A stretch of 64,000 bases of DNA. Source: Acinetobacter sp. Lineage in GTDB: Bacteria > Pseudomonadota > Gammaproteobacteria > Pseudomonadales > Moraxellaceae. The position numbers were made by a program, and so were the translations under genes. The DNA is taken from NCBI GenBank assembly GCA_031277915.1, contig JAITLL010000056.1, forward strand, positions 1 through 64,000. Reading direction: 5' to 3'. Below are positions 24,944 to 51,600 of the stretch, piece by piece (within the stretch, counting starts at the first letter, position 1; each line of letters opens with the position of its first letter). The notes under the pieces are model-generated. The model saw nothing but the letters and a program-made list of their open reading frames with translations. It searched no databases and had not been told where the DNA came from.

Positions 24944-25335
24944 ATCTCCACCTCTTATCCTTTTGAAATGAAAAACTGGAAAATTTTTTACATCTTTTAA
25001 AGCTTTTATATATAAATGAGCCGTTTTTTATCATTCGTCAAGATCAATAACTTACACATCTTTTAAAAAGAATTTTTATTATTCATCAATAATTTAAAAT
25101 ATTTTACCAAAAAGAAAAAAACATATCTTTCAGTCAACTTTTTAAGTCTTAAATATAATCACAAACTTCATATGAAAATTACAATAAAAATAGACCAAAA
25201 AATAAAAAAAAAAAAATTATTTAATAATAAAAATCAGGTTATTAGTTAATAATTTATACTCTTTAACAGACAAAAAAATATTCCGTATGTTTTTTACTGC
25301 ATTATTCGTATTTCATTTAAGGAAAATTAATAATG
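24944..25335. other. AT-rich gene-free stretch between island cargo and pyrE terminator
   Basis: About 390 bp, extremely AT-rich, with long A and T runs. No open frame worth calling. It must contain the promoter of the leftward dimethylformamidase-like gene. The 12-mer ACATCTTTTAAA occurs twice (24990 and 25056). I see no RNA gene or attachment site beyond this. Confidence 0.5.
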
Positions 25336-25362
25336 AAAAAGGAAGCTTTATGCTTCCTCTTT
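25336..25362 (-). terminator. Terminator after pyrE
   Basis: AAAAAGGAAGC-TTTAT-GCTTCCTCTTT hairpin 12 bp past the pyrE stop, with an A run on the left giving the U tract in leftward transcription. Confidence 0.85.
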
Positions 25363-25374
25363 AAATTATTAAAA

Positions 25375-26025
25375 TCAAATTCCATATTTTTCGCGGTAGG
25401 CTTGCATATTGGCTAAAGCTTCTTTTTCGCCTTTTCCATCTAAATAATCCATTAAATCTTTCATGGTAATCAGTGCGTGCACGGGAATTTCTAATTCTTT
25501 TTGAACTTCTTGAATTGCAGAAAGCTCACTTTGACCGCGTTCTTGACGATCTAATGCCACCAAAACACCCGCAATAGTTGCACCAGCGTTTTTCAAAATC
25601 GTTACCACTTCACGAATCGCTGTACCCGCAGTAATTACGTCATCAATAATCCAGACTTTTTTACCTTCAACCGCAGCACCAACTAAAACACCGCCTTCAC
25701 CATGATCTTTCGCTTCTTTACGGTTAAAGCCCCATGGCACGCTCTTATTATGTGTTTGAGACAAAGCAACAGCAGTCGCAGCTACAAATGGGATACCCTT
25801 ATAAGCTGGTCCAAAAATCACATCTACATTTTCACATTGTGTTAATTTATCTGCATAGCCTTGTGCTAAAAGAGATAAAGCTTCACCATCGTTGAGTAGG
25901 CCTGCATTAAAAAAATAAGGACTCACGCGTCCAGATTTTAAAGTAAACTCACCAAATTTAAGCACACCGCGTGATAATGCGAGTTCGATAAATGCTTGCG
26001 GGTTAAATGACACAGGCGTTGTCAT
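25375..26025 (-). CDS. pyrE: Orotate phosphoribosyltransferase
   Basis: Transfers ribose-5-phosphate from PRPP to orotate in pyrimidine synthesis. I place the start at ATG 26025 (216 residues, [20 protein letters not shown]) because GGAGCACCTC precedes it; the longer frame to 26088 runs into the divergent crc gene. The PRPP-binding motif is [16 protein letters not shown] and the flexible loop is [13 protein letters not shown]. It is divergent from the Crc-like gene with 38 bp between starts, the same pairing as pyrE-crc in Pseudomonas. Its 3' end has served as an insertion point (see 22161). Confidence 0.96.
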
Positions 26026-26063
26026 GAGGTGCTCCAAATTCACAATTGAGGTTAAATTTTCGC

Positions 26064-26888
26064 ATGATACCAAAGGATCAGTATCCAAGTGATGTAAAAA
26101 TTCTTCGAGTCGTTTCCATTAACGTAAATGGCTTACGTTCTTCAGTAACGAAAGGCTTACTTGAATGGTTAGAACAATCCGATGCCGATGTCGTATGCAT
26201 GCAGGAAAGCCGCATCACCCATGAACAATGGACTGAAAAGTTTAGACCCGAAGGATGGCATACCCATCTTTTTCCAGCAGAGCGTGCAGGTTACGCAGGT
26301 ACCGCAATTTATAGCCGCTTACCCTTCGTTTCTATTAAAGATGGTTTAGGGTTTGAATTGGCCGACAGTCAAGGCCGCTTCATTTCTGCTGAATTCGATT
26401 TAGGTTTGTCACATCCGGTACATATTGCGTCATTATACTTACCTTCAGGCTCAAGTGGTGAAGAAGCTCAAGCACGTAAAGATTTATTTTTAGGTGAGTA
26501 CGCAAAAATCTTGAAACAATGGCGTGATGAAAATAAGTCAGTCATCATTTGTGGCGACTACAACATTGTTCATAAACGCATTGATATTAAAAACTGGTCG
26601 GGTAATCAAAAATCATCTGGCTGCTTACCGCATGAGCGTGCATGGCTTGATCATATTTATGATGAACTTGGCTATGTCGATACCTTCCGTGTAGTTCGCG
26701 CAGAAGCAGAACTTTATTCATGGTGGTCAAATCGCGGTCAAGCTCGTGCAAAAAATGTAGGTTGGCGTATTGACTATCAAGCCTGCTCACCAGACTGGAA
26801 AACACGTACAGCAAATGCATGGGTCTATAAAGATCAATGGTTTAGCGACCATGCCCCAGTGATTATTGACTATAAAATTCAAGAATAA
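26064..26888 (+). CDS. crc: Crc / exonuclease III-family protein
   Basis: 274-residue EEP-superfamily protein. Position beside pyrE and the motifs DIKNW and [18 protein letters not shown] mark it as the Acinetobacter Crc, which in Pseudomonas acts with Hfq in catabolite repression. Unlike Pseudomonas Crc it keeps the nuclease residues: N20/N22 in [10 protein letters not shown]48 in CMQESR, D165 and N167 in [11 protein letters not shown], and a final DHAP motif. It could therefore be an active AP endonuclease/ExoIII as well as, or instead of, a regulator. I start at ATG 26064; a TTG at 26046 opens the frame. Confidence 0.82.
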
Positions 26889-26906
26889 GTGAACACATGT
26901 TCACTT
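26887..26906. repeat. Perfect palindrome at the crc stop
   Basis: AAGTGAACA-CA-TGTTCACTT, a 9-bp perfect inverted repeat overlapping the crc stop codon. No T run follows, so it is not a normal terminator. It could be a protein-binding site upstream of the RNA gene at about 26981. Confidence 0.55.
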
Positions 26907-26980
26907 ACATTGTCGCTTTTGCTTACAGCACATGTCGTTTTTGAGTATTTTTCTTACACACGTTTAACGGCATTATAGCC

Positions 26981-27130
26981 CCACGGCACAGGGAAGCAGT
27001 CAGGATGACGCAAAAGGATAGGACGCCGTAGGAAGATAAAATAAACTTAGATTAAGTTTATTTGCAAGGATGTGACAATGGACGTTGAAATGAGACCCGC
27101 ATGATCAGGATGATTAAATGCGGGTTTTCT
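26981..27130 (+). ncRNA. Candidate RsmX/Y/Z (CsrB)-type decoy small RNA
   Basis: The gap after crc has no reading frame but is RNA-like. Eight GGA triplets lie within 119 bases (starts 26992, 27003, 27016, 27021, 27031, 27068, 27080, 27108). Two sit in small perfect hairpins, GTCA-GGA-TGAC (26999-27009) and ATCA-GGA-TGAT inside the terminator loop. CAAGGATGT at 27066 closely follows the known CsrA/RsmA target ACARGGAUGU. A longer stem AAATAAACTT-AGATT-AAGTTTATTT occupies 27039-27063. An intrinsic terminator ends it. Ends are estimated: the 5' end from a CATTAT -10-like box at 26971. The family call is inference from these motifs. Confidence 0.72.
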
Positions 27131-27131
27131 C
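27095..27131 (+). terminator. Terminator of the Rsm-like RNA
   Basis: ACCCGCAT / ATGCGGGT 8-bp stem followed by TTTCTCTTTTCT. The loop itself holds a smaller ATCA-GGA-TGAT hairpin. Confidence 0.85.
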
Positions 27132-27344
27132 TTTTCTATCTCTTATTTTTTGCGCTAAGTTCTTTTAGTTTTTTCATTTCTTCTTATTGAAACCATTATT
27201 ACCTTGTCTTATGACAGTAACATGACATTTCTTATTGTTTTAATCATTATTTTTCATTTGTTTTAAAAGTATCTGTATAAAGTAGTGCTCAAATGCGTTT
27301 TGGGTTAGGCTGTGTGTTCTTTCTTTTTGACATGGTCCGATAAA

Positions 27345-27695
27345 ATGTTAAAAATTTATGGTATTAAAAACTGCAACTCAATGAAAAAAGCTTTTGATGC
27401 CTTACAAGCAGAAGGTCTAAGCTACGAATTTCATGATTATAAAAAACAAGGGATCGATGCAGATACCCTAAAAACTTGGCTACAAGAAATTGGGCAAGAT
27501 ACAGTTCTCAACAAGAAAGGTACCACGTGGAGAAAATTGTCTGAAGAAGAACAAACACGTGCCTTAAGCAGTCAAGATCATCTGATTGAAGCACTGATTG
27601 CTCAGCCAAGCTTAATTAAACGTCCAGTTCTACAAACATCTAAAGGTTTTCTGGTCGGCTTTGATGAAACAGCCTATCAAAACTTAAGCGTATAA
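27345..27695 (+). CDS. ArsC/Spx-family (YffB-like) protein
   Basis: 116 residues with a thioredoxin-like fold of the arsenate reductase family. The N-terminus IYGIKNCNSMKKAFDAL carries a single Cys where ArsC has its nucleophile, and KKGTTWRKLSEEEQ plus LIKRPVLQ are typical of the YffB/Spx side of the family. The role in proteobacteria is unclear; probably glutathione-linked reduction rather than arsenate resistance, since no ars genes are near. ATG 27345 gives the normal N-terminus; the upstream in-frame extension is not family-like. Confidence 0.85.
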   Translation: MLKIYGIKNCNSMKKAFDALQAEGLSYEFHDYKKQGIDADTLKTWLQEIGQDTVLNKKGTTWRKLSEEEQTRALSSQDHLIEALIAQPSLIKRPVLQTSKGFLVGFDETAYQNLSV

Positions 27696-27722
27696 AAAAA
27701 CGAGCCAAATGGCTCGTTTTTT
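27695..27722. terminator. Bidirectional terminator between two converging genes
   Basis: AAAAAACGAGCC-AAAT-GGCTCGTTTTTT hairpin, A run on the left and T run on the right. It serves the rightward ArsC-like gene and the leftward DUF2147 gene. Confidence 0.9.
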
Positions 27723-27732
27723 ATTTATGGTC

Positions 27733-28170
27733 TTAGTTAGCGCGAATCCACGTTTGGTTACGGCCCAGAGCAGAAACACCAATATAACCACGTAATTTAA
27801 GCTTTTTACCACCGTCAGCTAACTCACCTTTTAATTTGTAAGTTTTGCCAGATTTCGGATCTAAAATTGTACCGTTTTCATAACTGCTGCCACCTACATT
27901 TTTTAAATTATGTACAATGGTCACACCTTTAAGCGGTTTGTTTTTATACGGCCCTTCACATTTTGTACACGAATTTTCTTCACCTGGTGTCAAAATATTT
28001 TGAATGGTTGCAGTTAAGGTTCCATCCTTCTGTTCCGTAAACTTTACTACGGCTTTGGGCTTATTGGTTTGGTCATCAATCGTTTTCCATACCGTTCCGT
28101 TTAGTGGGTCAGCCGCATTGGCAAATGCAGCCATACCAACAAGTCCTAAAGCTAAAGCAATCTTTTTCAT
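27733..28170 (-). CDS. Secreted DUF2147 protein
   Basis: 145 residues with a clear signal peptide (MKKIALALGLVGMAAFANA). The mature part follows the DUF2147 pattern: NGTVWKTIDDQTNKPKAVVKF, two Cys in ENSCTKCEGPYKNKPLKG, and LKLRGYIGVSALGRNQTWIR at the end. The family is periplasmic, lipocalin-like, with no agreed function; the two close cysteines could form a disulfide. ATG 28170. It is a single gene ending at the shared terminator. Confidence 0.85.
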   Translation of the reverse strand: MKKIALALGLVGMAAFANAADPLNGTVWKTIDDQTNKPKAVVKFTEQKDGTLTATIQNILTPGEENSCTKCEGPYKNKPLKGVTIVHNLKNVGGSSYENGTILDPKSGKTYKLKGELADGGKKLKLRGYIGVSALGRNQTWIRAN

Positions 28171-28319
28171 TTTTGTAATATCCTTGGGTCTTTCAAGACT
28201 TCAGTATTCAAAACTCGCGGCGATATTGCAATTTTTGAATGTGACTGTTTCGTGTAACCTTGTAACCTTGAAAAATAAAATTTATAGGGAAACAAGTTAT
28301 TAACATAAGCGGATACTAT

Positions 28320-29231
28320 ATGAATATACCAAACGTTTTAAAATATTATTTAACAGAAACATTCCTTAAAACAGCTATTCGCACACCAAGTCAGTTGAAT
28401 TTACCCCCAACTGCTCTACGTCCCATGCTTGACCAACTTTGCAGGGCATTTCCAAAACAAAAAAATGTAACCGTTCGTCCAATTCGACTCGCTGGTGTCA
28501 AAGGTGAAGAGATTAAACCGCAAGATTCTGCGACCCAGCTTATTTTTCATATTCACGGCGGGGCTTTTTTTCTGGGAAGTTTAAAAACCCATCATGCTTT
28601 CATGACAGATTTGGCAGCTCGTACTCAAATGCAAATTATTCATGTGGACTATCCGCTTGCACCGGAACATCCATATCCTGAGGCGACCGAAGCGCTGTAT
28701 GACATCTATCACTCTTTATTGGTTCAGGGTATTCAACCCAAAGATATTATTTTATCGGGCGACTCATGTGGGGCCAATTTAGCTTTGGCACTATGTCTAC
28801 GCTTAAAAGAGCAACCTGAACTTATGCCAAGCGGCTTAATTTTATTGTCACCTTTTTTAGATTTAACGCTGACCAGTGAGTCTTTAAGGTTTAACCAAAA
28901 ACATGATGCCCTACTTTCTTTTGAAGCCCTCCAAATAGGCATTCAACACTATCTTGGCAATCATATTGCAGCAGATGACCCACGGGTTTCACCTATTTTT
29001 GATAACTTAGCAGGTTTGCCGCCGACTTTAGTACAGATAGGTTCTAAAGAAATTTTATTAGACGACGCGAAACGCTTTAGAGAAAAAGCTGAAGAAGCAG
29101 GTGTCAAAGTTCATTTTAAACTTTATACAGGTATGTGGCATAACTTCCAAATGTTTAATGCTTGGTTCGATGAAGCAAAACAAGCGATGGCGGATATTGC
29201 CGAGTTTGCCCATGAACTTGATAAAACTTAA
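28320..29231 (+). CDS. Alpha/beta hydrolase, hormone-sensitive lipase family
   Basis: 303-residue esterase. The HGGAFFLGS oxyanion motif at 79-87 and the nucleophile elbow GDSCG (Ser at about 149) identify the HSL family. DPRVSPIFDN, the acid region LVQIGSKEILLDDA and a catalytic His in GMWHNFQMF follow. No signal peptide, so it should act in the cytoplasm on short acyl esters. The nucleophile elbow has Cys after Ser (GDSCG) rather than the common Ala. The ribosome site is weak. Confidence 0.9.
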   Translation: MNIPNVLKYYLTETFLKTAIRTPSQLNLPPTALRPMLDQLCRAFPKQKNVTVRPIRLAGVKGEEIKPQDSATQLIFHIHGGAFFLGSLKTHHAFMTDLAARTQMQIIHVDYPLAPEHPYPEATEALYDIYHSLLVQGIQPKDIILSGDSCGANLALALCLRLKEQPELMPSGLILLSPFLDLTLTSESLRFNQKHDALLSFEALQIGIQHYLGNHIAADDPRVSPIFDNLAGLPPTLVQIGSKEILLDDAKRFREKAEEAGVKVHFKLYTGMWHNFQMFNAWFDEAKQAMADIAEFAHELDKT

Positions 29232-29409
29232 TTGAAATAAATGAAGTGATGAGTCTTAACTACTTGTCACTTTACCTTATTTATAAAAACCTTAATCTTA
29301 AGGTTTAATGAGTGAATCATGATATGTTTAGGTTATGAATCACTCAAACTCTCCCACTTTAGGATGGTCTGACTAAGAGACATCTCTATTTTGGAGTTCC
29401 TTTATTATT

Positions 29410-30603
29410 ATGAAAATCCGATTAATCACTCATCCTATAAATAAAATAAAACAGGTGATTCTCGAATTCATCCATAACAATCACATTATTAACTGGACGC
29501 CATTACAAAAAAGTGCCTTGATGCTTGTACTCGCTTGTGCCATGAGTTTCAGTTGGCTTTTATGGAAAGGCTATATTTTAATGATGCCTAGTCTCTGGCA
29601 ATGGGCAAATTTACCTTTAGTCAAATCACAAATCTGGCTCAATTTAATTACCTTACTTTTGTTAGCTTTACTCATTATTCCGTGTTACCGCTACAAAGAC
29701 CAAGAGTGGGCACAAAAAATTGTCCCTCTCATTAGCGTACAATTCTTTATGCTCATGCTGTGCCATGATGGCTATTTAATTGGCAGCATCAGTCCCGCCA
29801 CAATGGTCGGTTATGTCGGCACTATTGGGGTAGGTCTAGTTTTATTTGAAAGAAAAATTGTTTATAGCGCTTTTATACCAGCAACGATTATTTTAGCAGT
29901 ATGCACCTATTTAAGTATGAATGGGGTTATCCCCTACGCTCCACTTTTTAACTTCACGGCATTTCGACATGCTCAAACCAATCCATTTTGGTTAGCAAGT
30001 ATGCTGTTTTTTATTATGCCAATTTTAGGCGTTTGTTTTGTTTTATTTGAAATATTATTGACTCAATGGCGCCAAAGAGAAACTTATATTCAACGCTTAA
30101 GCCAACTTGACCCGTTAACCAATGTATTAAACAGACGCAGTTTAAACACACATTTAGAATTAATGCACCAACAGCAATTTGACTATGCGATAGTACTTCT
30201 TGATATCGATCATTTTAAAAAAATTAATGATATATATGGACATCATCAAGGTGATCAGGTCTTAATTGAAATCGCTCAATGCCTTTCTAAGAACTTGCGC
30301 AATGAAGATATTATTGGTCGATTTGGTGGAGAAGAATTTATTTTATTACTTCCCCACACTGATATTATTCAAGCAGAAAGAATTGCTGAGCGTTGTCGTC
30401 ATGCTTTGCAAGAATTGCCTGTTTTTAGCACTCAAAACAATCCCATTCATATTAGTGCAAGTTTTGGAATTAGCAGTTCCACCTTTGCAAACGATCCATA
30501 CCTTGTCATTCGACAGGCAGATCAGGCACTTTATGCAGTAAAGGCTTCAGGGCGCAATCAAGTGCGCACTTTTCAGCAAATAACCCATATAGAATCAATT
30601 TGA
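29410..30603 (+). CDS. Membrane-bound diguanylate cyclase (GGDEF)
   Basis: 397 residues. Five or six hydrophobic spans fill residues 35-215; the rest is a GGDEF domain beginning LDPLTNVLNRRSLN. The active-site motif is intact as GGEEF at 306-310, and the product-inhibition site RxxD is present (RNED, 297-300), so it should make c-di-GMP under feedback control. The N-terminal spans do not match a sensor domain I recognise. Its last 9 bp overlap the 3' end of the converging dsbD. Confidence 0.92.
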   Translation: MKIRLITHPINKIKQVILEFIHNNHIINWTPLQKSALMLVLACAMSFSWLLWKGYILMMPSLWQWANLPLVKSQIWLNLITLLLLALLIIPCYRYKDQEWAQKIVPLISVQFFMLMLCHDGYLIGSISPATMVGYVGTIGVGLVLFERKIVYSAFIPATIILAVCTYLSMNGVIPYAPLFNFTAFRHAQTNPFWLASMLFFIMPILGVCFVLFEILLTQWRQRETYIQRLSQLDPLTNVLNRRSLNTHLELMHQQQFDYAIVLLDIDHFKKINDIYGHHQGDQVLIEIAQCLSKNLRNEDIIGRFGGEEFILLLPHTDIIQAERIAERCRHALQELPVFSTQNNPIHISASFGISSSTFANDPYLVIRQADQALYAVKASGRNQVRTFQQITHIESI

Positions 30604-46588: not shown

Positions 46589-48616
46589 TTAATATGGTAA
46601 ATTTGCATTTATAAATGGTATTGGGTCAATTCTTCCATCTAATCCTACCCCTAATAAGGGAGCACTTCTAGATTCAAAATGAAGATGAGCACCTTTGGAT
46701 ATAGTGGTCATTTTATTCGCATTACCTGTTGCACCAGTTGTTCCAATTACTTCTCCAGTATCTACTGGATCACCTTTATCTACATCAATAACCGATAAAT
46801 GAGCATAAAAGAAGTAGACATATTTATTTTTTGTAAGTCTAGTTTGAGCATATTTCTTTTGCTTTTCGGGTAAATCGTTTATATCAACTTTTAAGACAAT
46901 GACTTTACCATATGCACCACCAGTTGCCCCAGCAAAAGCAATAATGCCACCACAGACTGCATATATTTTTGTACCTGGATTAGCTTGTAAATCAACACCC
47001 TGGTGATTTTTAGTACCATTATTTCTTACTTTACCAAATGTTGCACCTTTAGCATTAGCCAAACCTGCTGTTCTTAATTTGCAATCTGCTAAGGGATTAT
47101 GCCACTTATTATCTCCTCCAACATTATTTGTTGAGGCTTGTGAAGTATTAATTCCAATTTTAGATTCAGATTTTTCAGTAGTACTGACTTTTGTTGTCTC
47201 TTGATTATTAGAAGTAGTTGATATTTTAGGAGCAGGAGTGGAAATTGTTTGTCCTTTCAATAACTTTATAGTTTCATCCGTACTTAAGTTTATTCCAGAA
47301 GTCTTACTCTTATCTACAACATATTGATAAATATTTATATGGCCATCAATATAATTTCTCAGCCATGCTCCATAAGCAGCTTTTGCATCACCTTTATATC
47401 GATTTAAAAAATCTGCAGCTTGCTTGGCACCATTCTTTCCAAATTGAGTAAAAAGTAATTTTTTTGCACGTTCCTGACTTAAAGTGTTTAGTACAAAATT
47501 TTTCCCTCCTGTAGCTCCTTCATGATGTAACAAATAAGCAAACTTAGCGATTGAACTTGGTTCTGTTAGTTTTTGATAAGGTAAACCAGATGATTTAAAG
47601 TTACTAATTGCATAGGCAGCAGCAGCATCAATCGCCATTTCAGCATTAAATCTTAAATTTAATCTCTGCTGTATCGTTAGTTTAGGATGATTCATTACAT
47701 ATTGACCAACTAATGAACTTTTATCCTTACACATAGCTAACCATGTTTCATCTAAGAATTGGGTCAATCCTGCTGCAGTACTCGAATTTGCTTTACTATT
47801 AGTATTCCATTCGCCTGTCTTTTTTATTTTTGCTGCTTCAGCTTCAATAACAGCCGCTAAAGAGTGAGGAGTAAAACCATGTCTTTTAGCTGCGCTCACA
47901 ATATAAGCTCGATATTTATTATTAACAGGTTTTAATAAAAAATTATCTTCTGTAAATTGTGCAGCAATTATATGGGTACTACTACCATTATCGGTACGCT
48001 TTTGCTCTATTTTTTCTTCAGGTATTTTTGGTTGTGGTTGCTTATTCTTCAATTCATCTTTATTAGATGCAGTAGTAGATATACTTTCAACTATAGGTTT
48101 TCCAATCCTTTTTAAATTATTCATAATCTGATTAACTGTTTCATTTACTATTCCATCTTTTGCATAATGAGAACCTTCTACTTTCATTTTTCTCGATGTT
48201 AATTTTAGTACTTTTCGCCCTAATGGAAGCACTTTATGATCAGCAATCAAATCGAAAGTACCGTTTAAATTTTTAAAAAAAACTTTCAAACCTTTCGAAT
48301 GATCTTGAATTTTTATATCTTCAAAAATACTATTTTTTGTATTTATAATAATTTTTTTTTCATCAAACTCTAATTGAATGGTAGCTTTTGATATAGGCTT
48401 AAAAGAAAGATCCATTAAAATAATCTTTAATTGGGTTTCAAAATTATTAGTATTATTTACATCATCTTGTAAATAAATCTTTTGCCCAATTTTTAGATTA
48501 TGAATCATTCCACCTGATAATGAATTAATTCTAGCTAACTCTTTTACTGAAGTATGATGCTTTTTTGAAATTCCCCAAAGAGTATCACCTGATTTAACAA
48601 TATAAATTTTTGACAT
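46589..48616 (-). CDS. T6SS effector: LysM, lysozyme-like and M23 peptidase domains
   Basis: 675 residues, no signal peptide. Residues 3-50 are a LysM domain (YIVKSGDTLWGISKKHH). About 235-440 form a lysozyme/transglycosylase-like domain with SLAAVIEAEAAK (Glu258 or Glu260 as candidate acid) and STAAGLTQFLDETW. A Thr/Ser-rich linker (460-500) leads to an M23 domain with all metal residues: H538 and D542, H606 (FFYAHL), HLH 644-646. Two wall-cutting domains in one protein recall Aeromonas TseP and the Acinetobacter peptidase effector Tpe1. The gene starts 9 bp after vgrG and is more AT-rich than vgrG. Cytoplasmic, delivered by VgrG into a rival's periplasm. Confidence 0.85.
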   Translation of the reverse strand: MSKIYIVKSGDTLWGISKKHHTSVKELARINSLSGGMIHNLKIGQKIYLQDDVNNTNNFETQLKIILMDLSFKPISKATIQLEFDEKKIIINTKNSIFEDIKIQDHSKGLKVFFKNLNGTFDLIADHKVLPLGRKVLKLTSRKMKVEGSHYAKDGIVNETVNQIMNNLKRIGKPIVESISTTASNKDELKNKQPQPKIPEEKIEQKRTDNGSSTHIIAAQFTEDNFLLKPVNNKYRAYIVSAAKRHGFTPHSLAAVIEAEAAKIKKTGEWNTNSKANSSTAAGLTQFLDETWLAMCKDKSSLVGQYVMNHPKLTIQQRLNLRFNAEMAIDAAAAYAISNFKSSGLPYQKLTEPSSIAKFAYLLHHEGATGGKNFVLNTLSQERAKKLLFTQFGKNGAKQAADFLNRYKGDAKAAYGAWLRNYIDGHINIYQYVVDKSKTSGINLSTDETIKLLKGQTISTPAPKISTTSNNQETTKVSTTEKSESKIGINTSQASTNNVGGDNKWHNPLADCKLRTAGLANAKGATFGKVRNNGTKNHQGVDLQANPGTKIYAVCGGIIAFAGATGGAYGKVIVLKVDINDLPEKQKKYAQTRLTKNKYVYFFYAHLSVIDVDKGDPVDTGEVIGTTGATGNANKMTTISKGAHLHFESRSAPLLGVGLDGRIDPIPFINANLPY

Positions 48617-48625
48617 AAATTATAC

Positions 48626-51600
48626 CTATTCTTCTAAGTTATTTTCTTCAGCTTGCATACCATGCTCACCTACTTCAAATTCTTCTTCATGTTCTTCTTC
48701 ATAATTATCTTCATCATCAAATATACTTGACCAATCATCAAAACCAATCAGAGCTTCATATCGTTTTGCCTCATTCTGGAGAGATAAATTACTTTTCCCC
48801 GTTAAATCTGTTTTACCCTCCCAAATAATTTCTTTTTTGTCTGGTTCATATAACTGTATTTTTGCATTTCCTATACCATTTCCAGCTAAACTAGCAAATA
48901 AAAAATCAACAGCATACGGCCCCATTTTTGGCAACTCAGGAACCTCATAAGAAACCTTGGCTCCACTCGTAAACAAATGCTGCCCAGCTTTACTTTCAAA
49001 CTTACCGCCTGTTGTTGAAAATACTCCATCTGCATTAATTTTGAGCTGCGATCCACCTGCTGTTAATACAATTTCTTTTGGACTCGTAAGCTCGATTTTA
49101 TCTTCAGTAGAAATCAGCTTAATGACCTTCTTCGCAATTGCTTCAATGGCATCATCTTGTGCTTGTAGTTCGAGCTTTCCTTTTGCTGCATAAGCCCGCA
49201 AACCCTTTTGTGCAGCAAACAAACTGATTTTGTCTTGTGCATGCCCAATAATATTTTTCTGCGCGCTTAAATTAATTGAACCGCTAGCACTTTGGGCAAT
49301 ATCTTGTGACGCTTGCAGAATAATATTTTCAGGTGTCGTCAAAGCAATACCATTTGGCGATGCTAATAACATTAGGGCTTGTCTAAAGATTTTGCCTTGT
49401 TCTTGCTGTTTAGTATCGGAACTACTTTCTAAACCTTGGGTATAACCTTCCATAAAGCCTTGTAAAGAACTCAATGCTTTAGAAGGTGATACTTCCAACT
49501 TACTGCCTTTACTAAAAGTTCCGCATACACTCATCATGTCAAAGTCTTTAGTCTCGACATTTGCTAAGACTTTTCCGACCTCTTGAATACTTTCAAATGG
49601 ATTTTTATGAATGCGGTCTTTAATGCTAGCAAGTTTTCCTTTAACGATGTCGGCACCATGTTCTTCAACGTTTTCAATAAATGCTTTTAAGTTTTCTACC
49701 GCATCTTTAGCGTCGCTAAAGAAAGCATTAAATTCGTCTACAACGCCTTTTGTATTTCCACCTAGTGCACCAATGTCTTGAATAAAGCCACCACAGCTTT
49801 TTAGTGCGTGAATAGGATCGTTATTAATCCCTTCTTTAAATAGATTCACCGTACTATCTAATGCCTGTCCTGTGGTTTTTAACTCAAGTGACTGGATAAA
49901 TTTAGGCAAGCGATTGATCACGTTCAAAGCATCAGTTTGTTGCTTGGCTGCAACGTCACTGAGCATTTTCATGCTTTCATAGCCTTGTGAAAGTAATGAT
50001 TGTGCTTGTGCGGCCTCTAAATGGTCGGCAATCGCTTGCTCTTGTGCATAGGTACTAATGAGCATGCCTTTGCCCGCACGCACAGCTCCCCAAGCGTCTG
50101 TTCTCAGCTCAAAGCCTTCTCCACGGCCTTGACTCGTCTCTTGTTCTTTTGGATGGCTTAAATTACCCAAATTCAGCTGCGTTGCTGCATGACTACTTTG
50201 GAGTTGGGTACTAATTTGTCCAGTTGTGTCATCAAAGCGTAATTGGTTGAAGCCACTACCACTGATTTCCTGACTGCGAATCCCACTCAATTTTTTAGTC
50301 GCAGGAAGTTGCCCTTTTACATCGAACTTGGTTGGTGAGCGCTGCGCTTCATGGATGCGCCCAGTCACAAATGGACGGTCGATATTGCCATCAAAGAAGT
50401 CAATGACAACTACCTCACCAATACGTGGCAAGAAACGTGCGCCATAGCCTTCTCCTGCCCAAGGAGTCAGTACATCGACCCAAGCCGAGTCGGTATCATT
50501 GTCATTGCTACCTGCACCACCGTCATGGCCATGATCATCACTACGGGTAAATAGAAAACGTACTTTAATGCGCCCCCATTCATCGACATGAAGGGTCTCT
50601 CCTTGTGGCCCCACGACTTTTGCTCGTTGTGGGTAGGCAATTGGGCGATGCTGCTCTGGATTATACTCAGGCGCAGTCTTGATTTGACGGCGTATTAGGG
50701 TCAGCTCATTACCTTGACGCTCGATATCATCATAACCATGTTGATCCCAACGACTTTGGGTTAATAACTGGCTTACTTGCTGATGTAAGTCTTTAGGTAA
50801 GTTATTTTGGTTATAGAAGTTTTTAGCAATGATCAAGAACTCTTGATCTGCCCCTTCATGCTGATCAATTTCAGGATGCTCGCGTAAATTAAACCAATAG
50901 CCGACTTGGCTGTCACGAACACTACTATAGGCTTTAAAGTATTTCGCCCGACTCGCATGCATGTCGGTGAAGTGCTGATTTAATTTTTCTAATTGACCAC
51001 TGCCTGAAGCCGTTGCCTGATCTTCCCCTTTTAAGTCTTGCATCCAAGCGGGGCTTACATGCCATGCCTGCTCAAGACTTAAAGTGGCTGAGTCAAAGCT
51101 GTCTGAATGTGTATGTGTCGTAACAACCGAACCATTACCCTCTTCTTGTGCTAATGCATCGGGTTGCCAGCGCTGCACATGCACCGCTGTTGGTTGCAAA
51201 CTTCGTACTGCAACAAAACCAGTAATACTATCTTGATATTCGGTTGCGCTACTTCTGTGATAGCGGATACTACGACGTGCTAAAGCCTGATACTGGCTAT
51301 TGTCATCAATTAATCTTAATTTTTGAGCTTGTATTGGCACAGTAAAATGAGGGACAAAAAGCTCTGATTCATCAATGAGCCAACTAATGCCTTCACTTCG
51401 CCATAAGCGCGTAAGGAAGTCATAGTCAGACTCATTGTGCTGCATGGTGAAAGGTCGAATGTCATAGTTTTGACTTAAACCACCCAAATCGAGACTTAAA
51501 CTCGCAGCAAAAAGTGGACTTTTTTCTTGCCACTCTTTAAATAAAATTTCGGTAATTTCTACAATACTTTTATTCATAAAAACACGACTATTACGGCGTT

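Follow-up and report, generated by a model that had tools for sequence, protein, structure and literature searches.

Small RNAs of the RsmX/Y/Z class carry several GGA hairpin loops, measure about 110-160 nt and end in an intrinsic terminator, and the consensus of the GacA-type box is TGTAAG-N6-CTTACA. CrcZ and CrcY titrate Hfq-Crc through AAYAAYAA-type CA motifs. A short hairpin that holds GGA in its loop is a known signature of a CsrA site, and an arginine of CsrA is needed for GGA recognition (PMC7366521). In A. baumannii, CsrA is reported to be essential on rich media (PMC12802169), and GacSA is described as a global regulator whose reach includes virulence genes (PMC5295007). The sRNAs that are expected to link GacSA and CsrA were found by genome inspection and are described as uncharacterised (PMC7366521); Table 1 of that source lists RsmX, RsmY and RsmZ for A. 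baumannii in square brackets, which carry this meaning, citing Kulkarni 2006. Two predicted RsmA-regulating sRNAs of strain ADP1 are placed at ACIAD0018/0019 and ACIAD2750/2751 in a passage of PMC5568370, which also mentions others predicted earlier. A transcript catalogue of A. baumannii comprises 110 sRNAs (Kroger 2018, as described in PMC9810633), and catalogues of this kind may contain the RNA treated here.

Here we report a stretch of Acinetobacter sp. DNA just after crc, within a window of 64,000 nt (the whole stretch of DNA analysed), that very probably encodes a CsrA-titrating sRNA, which would add a new member to the CsrB/RsmXYZ functional class. An RsmX/Y/Z-like RNA had been proposed at this place in the initial annotation; the likeness stood as far as anatomy goes, and membership in an Rfam family did not, as the recommended search with the RsmX/Y/Z and CsrB models of Rfam found no family at gathering score in the window. 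With a relaxed E-value, rsmX was the only one of the Rsm/Csr families to appear in the window (18.2 bits, E 0.39, gathering score 56); the RsmY model had no match in the genome of the window, and rsmX matched one copy only (23.9 bits, E 2) in 11 fetched loci of other genera. No paper naming the crc-linked RNA turned up in a literature search at the level of listings and passages, and neither CsrA nor crc is mentioned in the main text of PMC11472050.

Anatomy, conservation and covariation

The features of the locus are listed in Table 1 together with related RNAs of the same genome. Eight GGA words had been claimed within 119 nt, and they lie at 26992, 27003, 27016, 27021, 27031, 27068, 27080 and 27108. 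Windows of this length hold on average 0.90 GGA on the plus strand and 0.97 on the minus strand of the 64 kb, with maxima of 8 (plus strand, at the crc-linked stretch) and 6 (minus strand). Mononucleotide shuffles of the 123 nt around the GGA words had a mean of 3.7 and reached at least eight in 170 of 20,000 cases; part of the excess is thus due to the G/A-rich composition of the stretch, and GGA density alone is suggestive evidence, not decisive. The fold of the whole stretch is mildly better than that of shuffled sequences (z -1.95; 9 of 200 shuffles equally good).

Table 1. Positions of features at the crc locus (window coordinates) and of multicopy GGA-rich RNAs on other contigs of the same genome.
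Feature	Position	Strand	Remarks
crc (catabolite repression control protein homologue), upstream neighbour	26064..26888	+	ORF, listed from TTG 26046; ATG 26064
Hairpin at crc end, candidate terminator separating crc from the RNA gene	26885..26908	.	palindrome largely kept in alignment
CTTACA, putative surviving right half of a GacA-type box	26922..26927	+	55 nt before ACGGC
GCATTAT, likely -10 region (putative assignment)	26970..26976	+	exact in 28/30 loci
RNA gene	26980..27134	+	covariance models R1 (179.9 bits) and R2 (156.1 bits); both were built with the window sequence among their input
Outer stem ACGGC (26983-26987) / GCCGT (27025-27029)	26983..27029	+	encloses GGA 1-4
GGA hairpin GUC-AGGAU-GAC, candidate CsrA site	26999..27009	+	both-side changes in 3/4 helix pairs
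AT-rich hairpin between GGA 5 and GGA 6	27039..27063	+	hairpin in 30/30 loci
GCAAGGAUGU, 9/10 to CsrA consensus ACARGGAUGU	27064..27073	+	its GGA kept in 30/30 loci
GGA 7, then CGTT	27080..27082	+	kept in 30/30 loci
Intrinsic terminator GAGACCCGCAU/AUGCGGGUUUU, GGA 8 in apical hairpin AUCA-GGA-UGAU	27092..27134	+	folds, alignment
arsC/Spx-like gene, downstream neighbour	27345..27695	+	ORF, listed from GTG 27312; label from sequence character
Multicopy GGA RNA, contig C48	about 48099-48289, 49280-49460, plus one cut by contig end	-	
Multicopy GGA RNA, contig C20	77725-77907		loci of family: L200-L202, L207
Multicopy GGA RNA, contig C6	4510-4690		

Two mini-hairpins that had been described as perfect are indeed so (GTCA-GGA-TGAC, 26999-27009; ATCA-GGA-TGAT, 27104-27114), and the separate long stem was recovered as the AT-rich one at about 27039-27063. 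The word GCAAGGATGT (27064-27073), reported as a match to the CsrA consensus, is present but agrees at nine of its ten positions only. The stem of the strong terminator that had been read here (27092-27128) is clear from sequence and folds, though it was missed by a simple pattern scan, which listed only a minus-strand hairpin at the crc end. A conserved upstream block and the terminator stem are observed, and a putative promoter is assigned from sequence, with the 5' end of the RNA probably at about 26982. In 28 sequences, the RNA has a length of 147-163 nt.

Of 58 genomes searched at the DNA level, 33 gave a match, and all of these belong to the 37 from the window's genus; the 30 best matches served as loci, which were anchored on crc, set to one strand and aligned from the upstream box to the terminator. 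In this alignment across Acinetobacter, which had been proposed as a check, all eight GGA words are kept in 30/30 loci; several conserved GGA words, some of them in hairpin loops, are a feature of CsrA-sequestering sRNAs, and the crc-linked RNA shows it with two GGA hairpins. The hairpin in the spacer between GGA 5 and GGA 6 forms in every locus (z from -1.1 to -4.7), and its sequence varies among lineages.

The covariation check that had also been proposed gave little within the genus, where 1/24 pairs changed on both sides because mean column identity is as high as 84% (28 distinct sequences), and gave a positive result across genera. The cross-genus alignment comprised 20 sequences from four genera (nine from Acinetobacter, eleven from others; the g26 copy, truncated by the model, was left out), with 97.4% of the cells paired. 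Against a shuffle control that ignores relatedness, and with a structure drawn from the same 20 sequences, both-side changes were found in 7/23 pairs (3.5 in shuffles; reached by 0/500) and in 27 cells (7.4 in shuffles; 0/500), and there were 12 further pair types (10.0 in shuffles; matched by 31/500). When partners were slid out of register, pairing fell to 30-50%. In the GGA hairpin at 26999, UA is exchanged for CG and CG for AU around a GGA that is invariant in 20/20 aligned sequences of the four genera, and the terminator has both-side changes in 4/11 stem pairs. The outer stem is paired in 98.0% of cells; four of its five pairs never vary, and a stem that hardly varies receives no support from covariation. 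We consider the compensatory changes around GGA to be the strongest evidence for a structured, GGA-presenting RNA, and regard the stretch as a real, genus-wide RNA gene of this kind.

The half GacA box and other GGA-rich RNAs

Three CTTACA words upstream (26904, 26922, 26953) had been noted as resembling halves of the GacA box. All three are present, none is part of a full box, and it is the word at 26922 that holds its position throughout the genus. No full box, TGTAAG-N6-CTTACA, lies upstream of the RNA in any of the 30 Acinetobacter loci, that of the window included. At the right half, 5-6/6 positions match in 28/30 loci and 4/6 in two, and TG(A/T)CG follows in 27/30; automatic picking took other sites in loci L003 and L016, where the alignment shows CTTACA (L003) and CGCACA (L016), and L017 also has CGCACA (4/6) at the conserved column. 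The left-half site, which reads TTGTCG at 26910-26915 of the window, matches at no more than 2/6 positions in 30/30 loci (mean 1.07/6), at or below chance. Further downstream, GCATTAT lies 81-116 nt after the crc stop in 28/30 loci. In the copies from other genera, by contrast, both halves are present in 12/12 of those fetched (left 4-6/6, right 5-6/6), with 55-56 nt between box and ACGGC. As the box is present in all four other genera, we infer that an ancestral GacA box has decayed to its right half, a loss within Acinetobacter and not an unfinished gain, which would partly explain the CTTACA words of the initial annotation, the one at 26922 being the remaining right half. Another, unrecognised GacA site could have taken the place of the half box.

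The window's own genome was scanned for GacA boxes with at most two mismatches; the 167 places found compare with 150 for a reversed control pattern, so most of them are due to chance. Among the best places, a GGA-rich, hairpin-terminated stretch comes after two on contig C48 and after a single one on each of C6, C20 and C38. The copies on C20 and at the end of C48 both lie at contig ends and may be one copy. The GGA hairpins of the multicopy family (C48, C20 and C6) include GGAACAGGAUGUUCC, with CAACAGGAUGUUG in the terminator. RNAs of the C48 type were found in 23/25 genomes of the genus (in one only at E 8e-4), at up to 8 places per genome, and in 0/13 genomes outside it. Seventeen copies were caught by motif in 10/20 loci, and 16/16 copies with upstream sequence have a box with 9-12/12 matches at 59-60 nt. 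GacA-type boxes are therefore maintained in the genus, and against this background the absence of one half at the crc-linked RNA carries more weight. The C48 copies had no convincing Rfam match at E <=2, and a 101-nt part of the C48 RNA folds no better than shuffles (z -0.95). The CA motif was discarded as a feature of the multicopy RNAs: AAYAAYAA occurs in 9/17 copies (from the window's genome, its closest relatives and genome G021) and is thus not general.

On the minus strand of contig C38, from 14270 downstream (L203, L199), the box TGTAAGCAATATCGTACA is followed by 9 GGA in 130 nt and a terminator with the loop GCAGGACGC, a further candidate CsrA decoy. Contig C30 carries one perfect and one one-mismatch GacA-type box 447 nt apart (10587 and 11034; L204), with no adjoining GGA cluster (<=3 in 130 nt); these boxes possibly mark other GacA targets.

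The alternative that fares best accepts CsrA binding and holds that the half box keeps expression under full GacA control, with nothing rewired. The conservation of the right half and of the TG(A/T)CG that follows it fits this view; the chance-level left half in every Acinetobacter locus and the near-complete boxes before all copies of the genus's other GGA-rich RNAs that have upstream sequence speak against it, and we regard it as possible but doubtful. On a bolder reading, Acinetobacter would have CsrA decoys in two layers: the multicopy RNAs, which GacA would still control, and an older decoy at crc that lost the left half of its box and passed to another signal. We hold this tentative arrangement to be possible, if somewhat less likely than not. 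If it is true, two independent inputs would titrate CsrA, one of them beside the gene of a carbon catabolite regulator.

Distribution and gene context

Model R1 matched 131/299 genomes of a sample of the family, comprising 121/126 within the genus and 10/173 in other genera (g29, g31, g33 and g26). Twelve of the 14 copies from other genera were fetched and read, and each of the 12 has 8 to 10 GGA. The window's own genome has a single copy, with no second R1 match up to E=10. CsrA is encoded in 291/299 genomes of the family, so its co-occurrence with the RNA is uninformative; the five of 126 same-genus genomes without an R1 match also keep CsrA, and the RNA is either dispensable or diverged in these. 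Nine genomes of the genus without a match in the DNA or the model search were checked at crc, which is present in eight (all except G030); in these eight (L081-L088), the RNA is absent after crc, the fetched 1.5 kb holds no arsC-like neighbour, and scores from the unfiltered model do not exceed 11.2 bits (E 0.45). A pattern derived from the RNA found 95 stretches in a named genome collection, and among the 80 listed, 79 were from Acinetobacter and one from a Moraxellaceae bacterium; a record of A. baylyi also holds the pattern (locus L092). Of six named records compared with positions 25001-29500 of the window, one of A. nosocomialis (L137) came closest, with 92.9% identity over 4501 nt. Over 390 genomes of the order, model R2 gave 7 matches at E <=0.01, two of them from the window's genus; those at L185-L188 were rejected as apparent chance matches, the plainest case being one to a terminator.

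The RNA has multiplied in sister genera, with four copies on four contigs in G064 (g29, L062-L065) and a tandem pair 580 nt apart in G068 (g33, L068); in both genomes, every copy has the two halves of a GacA-type box. G077 holds a homologue of low score (33.8 bits; L072, 2358-2480 minus and beyond) that seems to be longer, with more GGA words past the end of the model, and is perhaps a larger CsrB-like variant. In G416, a genome from a different family of the order, R2 weakly matches a GGA-rich stretch that has the perfect box TGTAAGCCATGGCTTACA (L189, E 0.009).

The order in the window is crc, gap and arsC/Spx-like gene, all on the plus strand; the upstream gene is taken to be crc, as in the initial annotation. 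The RNA had been said to lie just after crc, and a crc homologue was found by tblastn, adjoining the RNA, in 30/30 Acinetobacter loci; an arsC/Spx-like homologue follows the RNA in all of them, roughly 350 to 1270 nt from crc (recounted from coordinates). The RNA also follows crc in both fetched g31 loci, where the arsC-like gene comes next too, and in one g29 copy. Around the remaining nine fetched copies from other genera (three of the four in g29 and those in g33 and g26), the 4.5-5.5 kb retrieved contain no match to crc; the RNA is therefore not simply a 3' UTR of crc.

These contexts bear on two further readings. The constant position next to crc in Acinetobacter, g31 and one g29 copy suggests an Hfq-Crc decoy of the kind found in Pseudomonas (CrcZ/CrcY), and an Acinetobacter RNA, sRNA99, is described as CrcZ-like in a passage of PMC12802169; AAYAAYAA is nevertheless absent from the 160 nt starting at ACGGC in 30/30 loci, the conserved words are GGA instead of CA repeats, and nine of the fetched copies from other genera have no crc match nearby, all of which makes this reading very unlikely. 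It is equally improbable that the RNA serves the arsC/Spx-like gene as a 5' leader or attenuator, or derives from the 3' UTR of the crc mRNA: it does lie between homologues of both genes in 30/30 loci, but the distance between these genes varies severalfold, a hairpin separates the RNA from crc, the RNA has its own conserved upstream block, and its gene contexts differ in other genera.

The claim that the gene has no reading frame applies to ORFs of at least 60 aa, none of which lies in the gap; it does not extend to short frames, as an 8-codon ATG/TTG frame exists (27079-27105 of the window). That a dual-function RNA also encodes this peptide (M/L-D-V-x-M/L-R-P-A, after the Shine-Dalgarno-like word AAGGA) is hardly credible, for although 29/30 loci have the start codon (12 ATG, 17 TTG) and 28/30 an 8-codon frame with a stop, codon 4 can stand for E, V, I, K or G, the start is lacking in one locus and the frame extended in another, the copies from other genera have neither ATG nor TTG at this place, and the bases are shared with GGA 7 and the terminator.

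The probable CsrA decoy and its relatives

The motif set had been attributed to RNAs that sequester CsrA/RsmA, and the attribution is supported by the conserved GGA words, the compensatory changes in hairpins, the varied gene contexts and the GacA-type boxes of the sister genera. The window's genome has one CsrA gene, with the segment ...VHREEIYQRI..., the arginine of which we take to be the one needed for GGA recognition, and a GacA homologue that scores 266.5 bits against NF007018 (presumably UvrY), below the cut-off of 280 of that model.

In the mechanism that we propose from sequence comparison, the stretch would give rise to a separate sRNA, about 150 nt long, as a decoy for the RNA-binding protein CsrA. 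With GGA words placed in hairpin loops or single-stranded linkers, one RNA could hold several CsrA dimers, and accumulation of the RNA would pull CsrA off its target mRNAs and reverse their control. With the ancestral GacA box kept in sister genera and decayed to its right half in Acinetobacter, the RNA would probably be expressed with weak or altered GacA dependence; or else a different activator may read the conserved block CTTACA-N5-TG(A/T)CG. Transcription, CsrA binding, titration and altered control of the crc-linked RNA are all predicted in this scheme, in which it may act as a CsrA sink that has partly escaped GacA.

This study adds a conserved RNA gene unmatched by Rfam and a covariance model that detects it. 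The locus also offers a natural experiment in promoter decay, with the box intact in sister genera and halved in Acinetobacter, and opens to direct test the idea that a CsrA decoy can be transferred between signals.

Among known systems, CrcZ/CrcY share the decoy principle, and the link of the crc-linked RNA to Crc is one of position only, the CA motifs being absent here. The RsmXYZ predicted in Acinetobacter ADP1 and A. baumannii are of the same genus and the same proposed function, and both they and our RNA are computational only; the two listed ADP1 sRNAs flank ACIAD0018/0019 and ACIAD2750/2751, and the predictions may include the crc-linked RNA. The multicopy GGA RNAs (C48, C20, C6) and the 9-GGA RNA of C38 resemble the crc-linked RNA in their GGA hairpins and in the GGA of the terminator loop; the multicopy RNAs differ from it in occupying up to 8 places per genome, with a box at 59-60 nt, whereas the crc-linked RNA has a single copy in the window's genome. 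With rsmX (RF02144) and the RsmX/Y/Z of Pseudomonas it has in common GGA hairpin loops, a terminator and, in the sister-genus homologues, a GacA-type box; it is distinguished from them by the ACGGC/GCCGU outer stem, by the GGA in its terminator loop and, in Acinetobacter, by having only half a GacA box.
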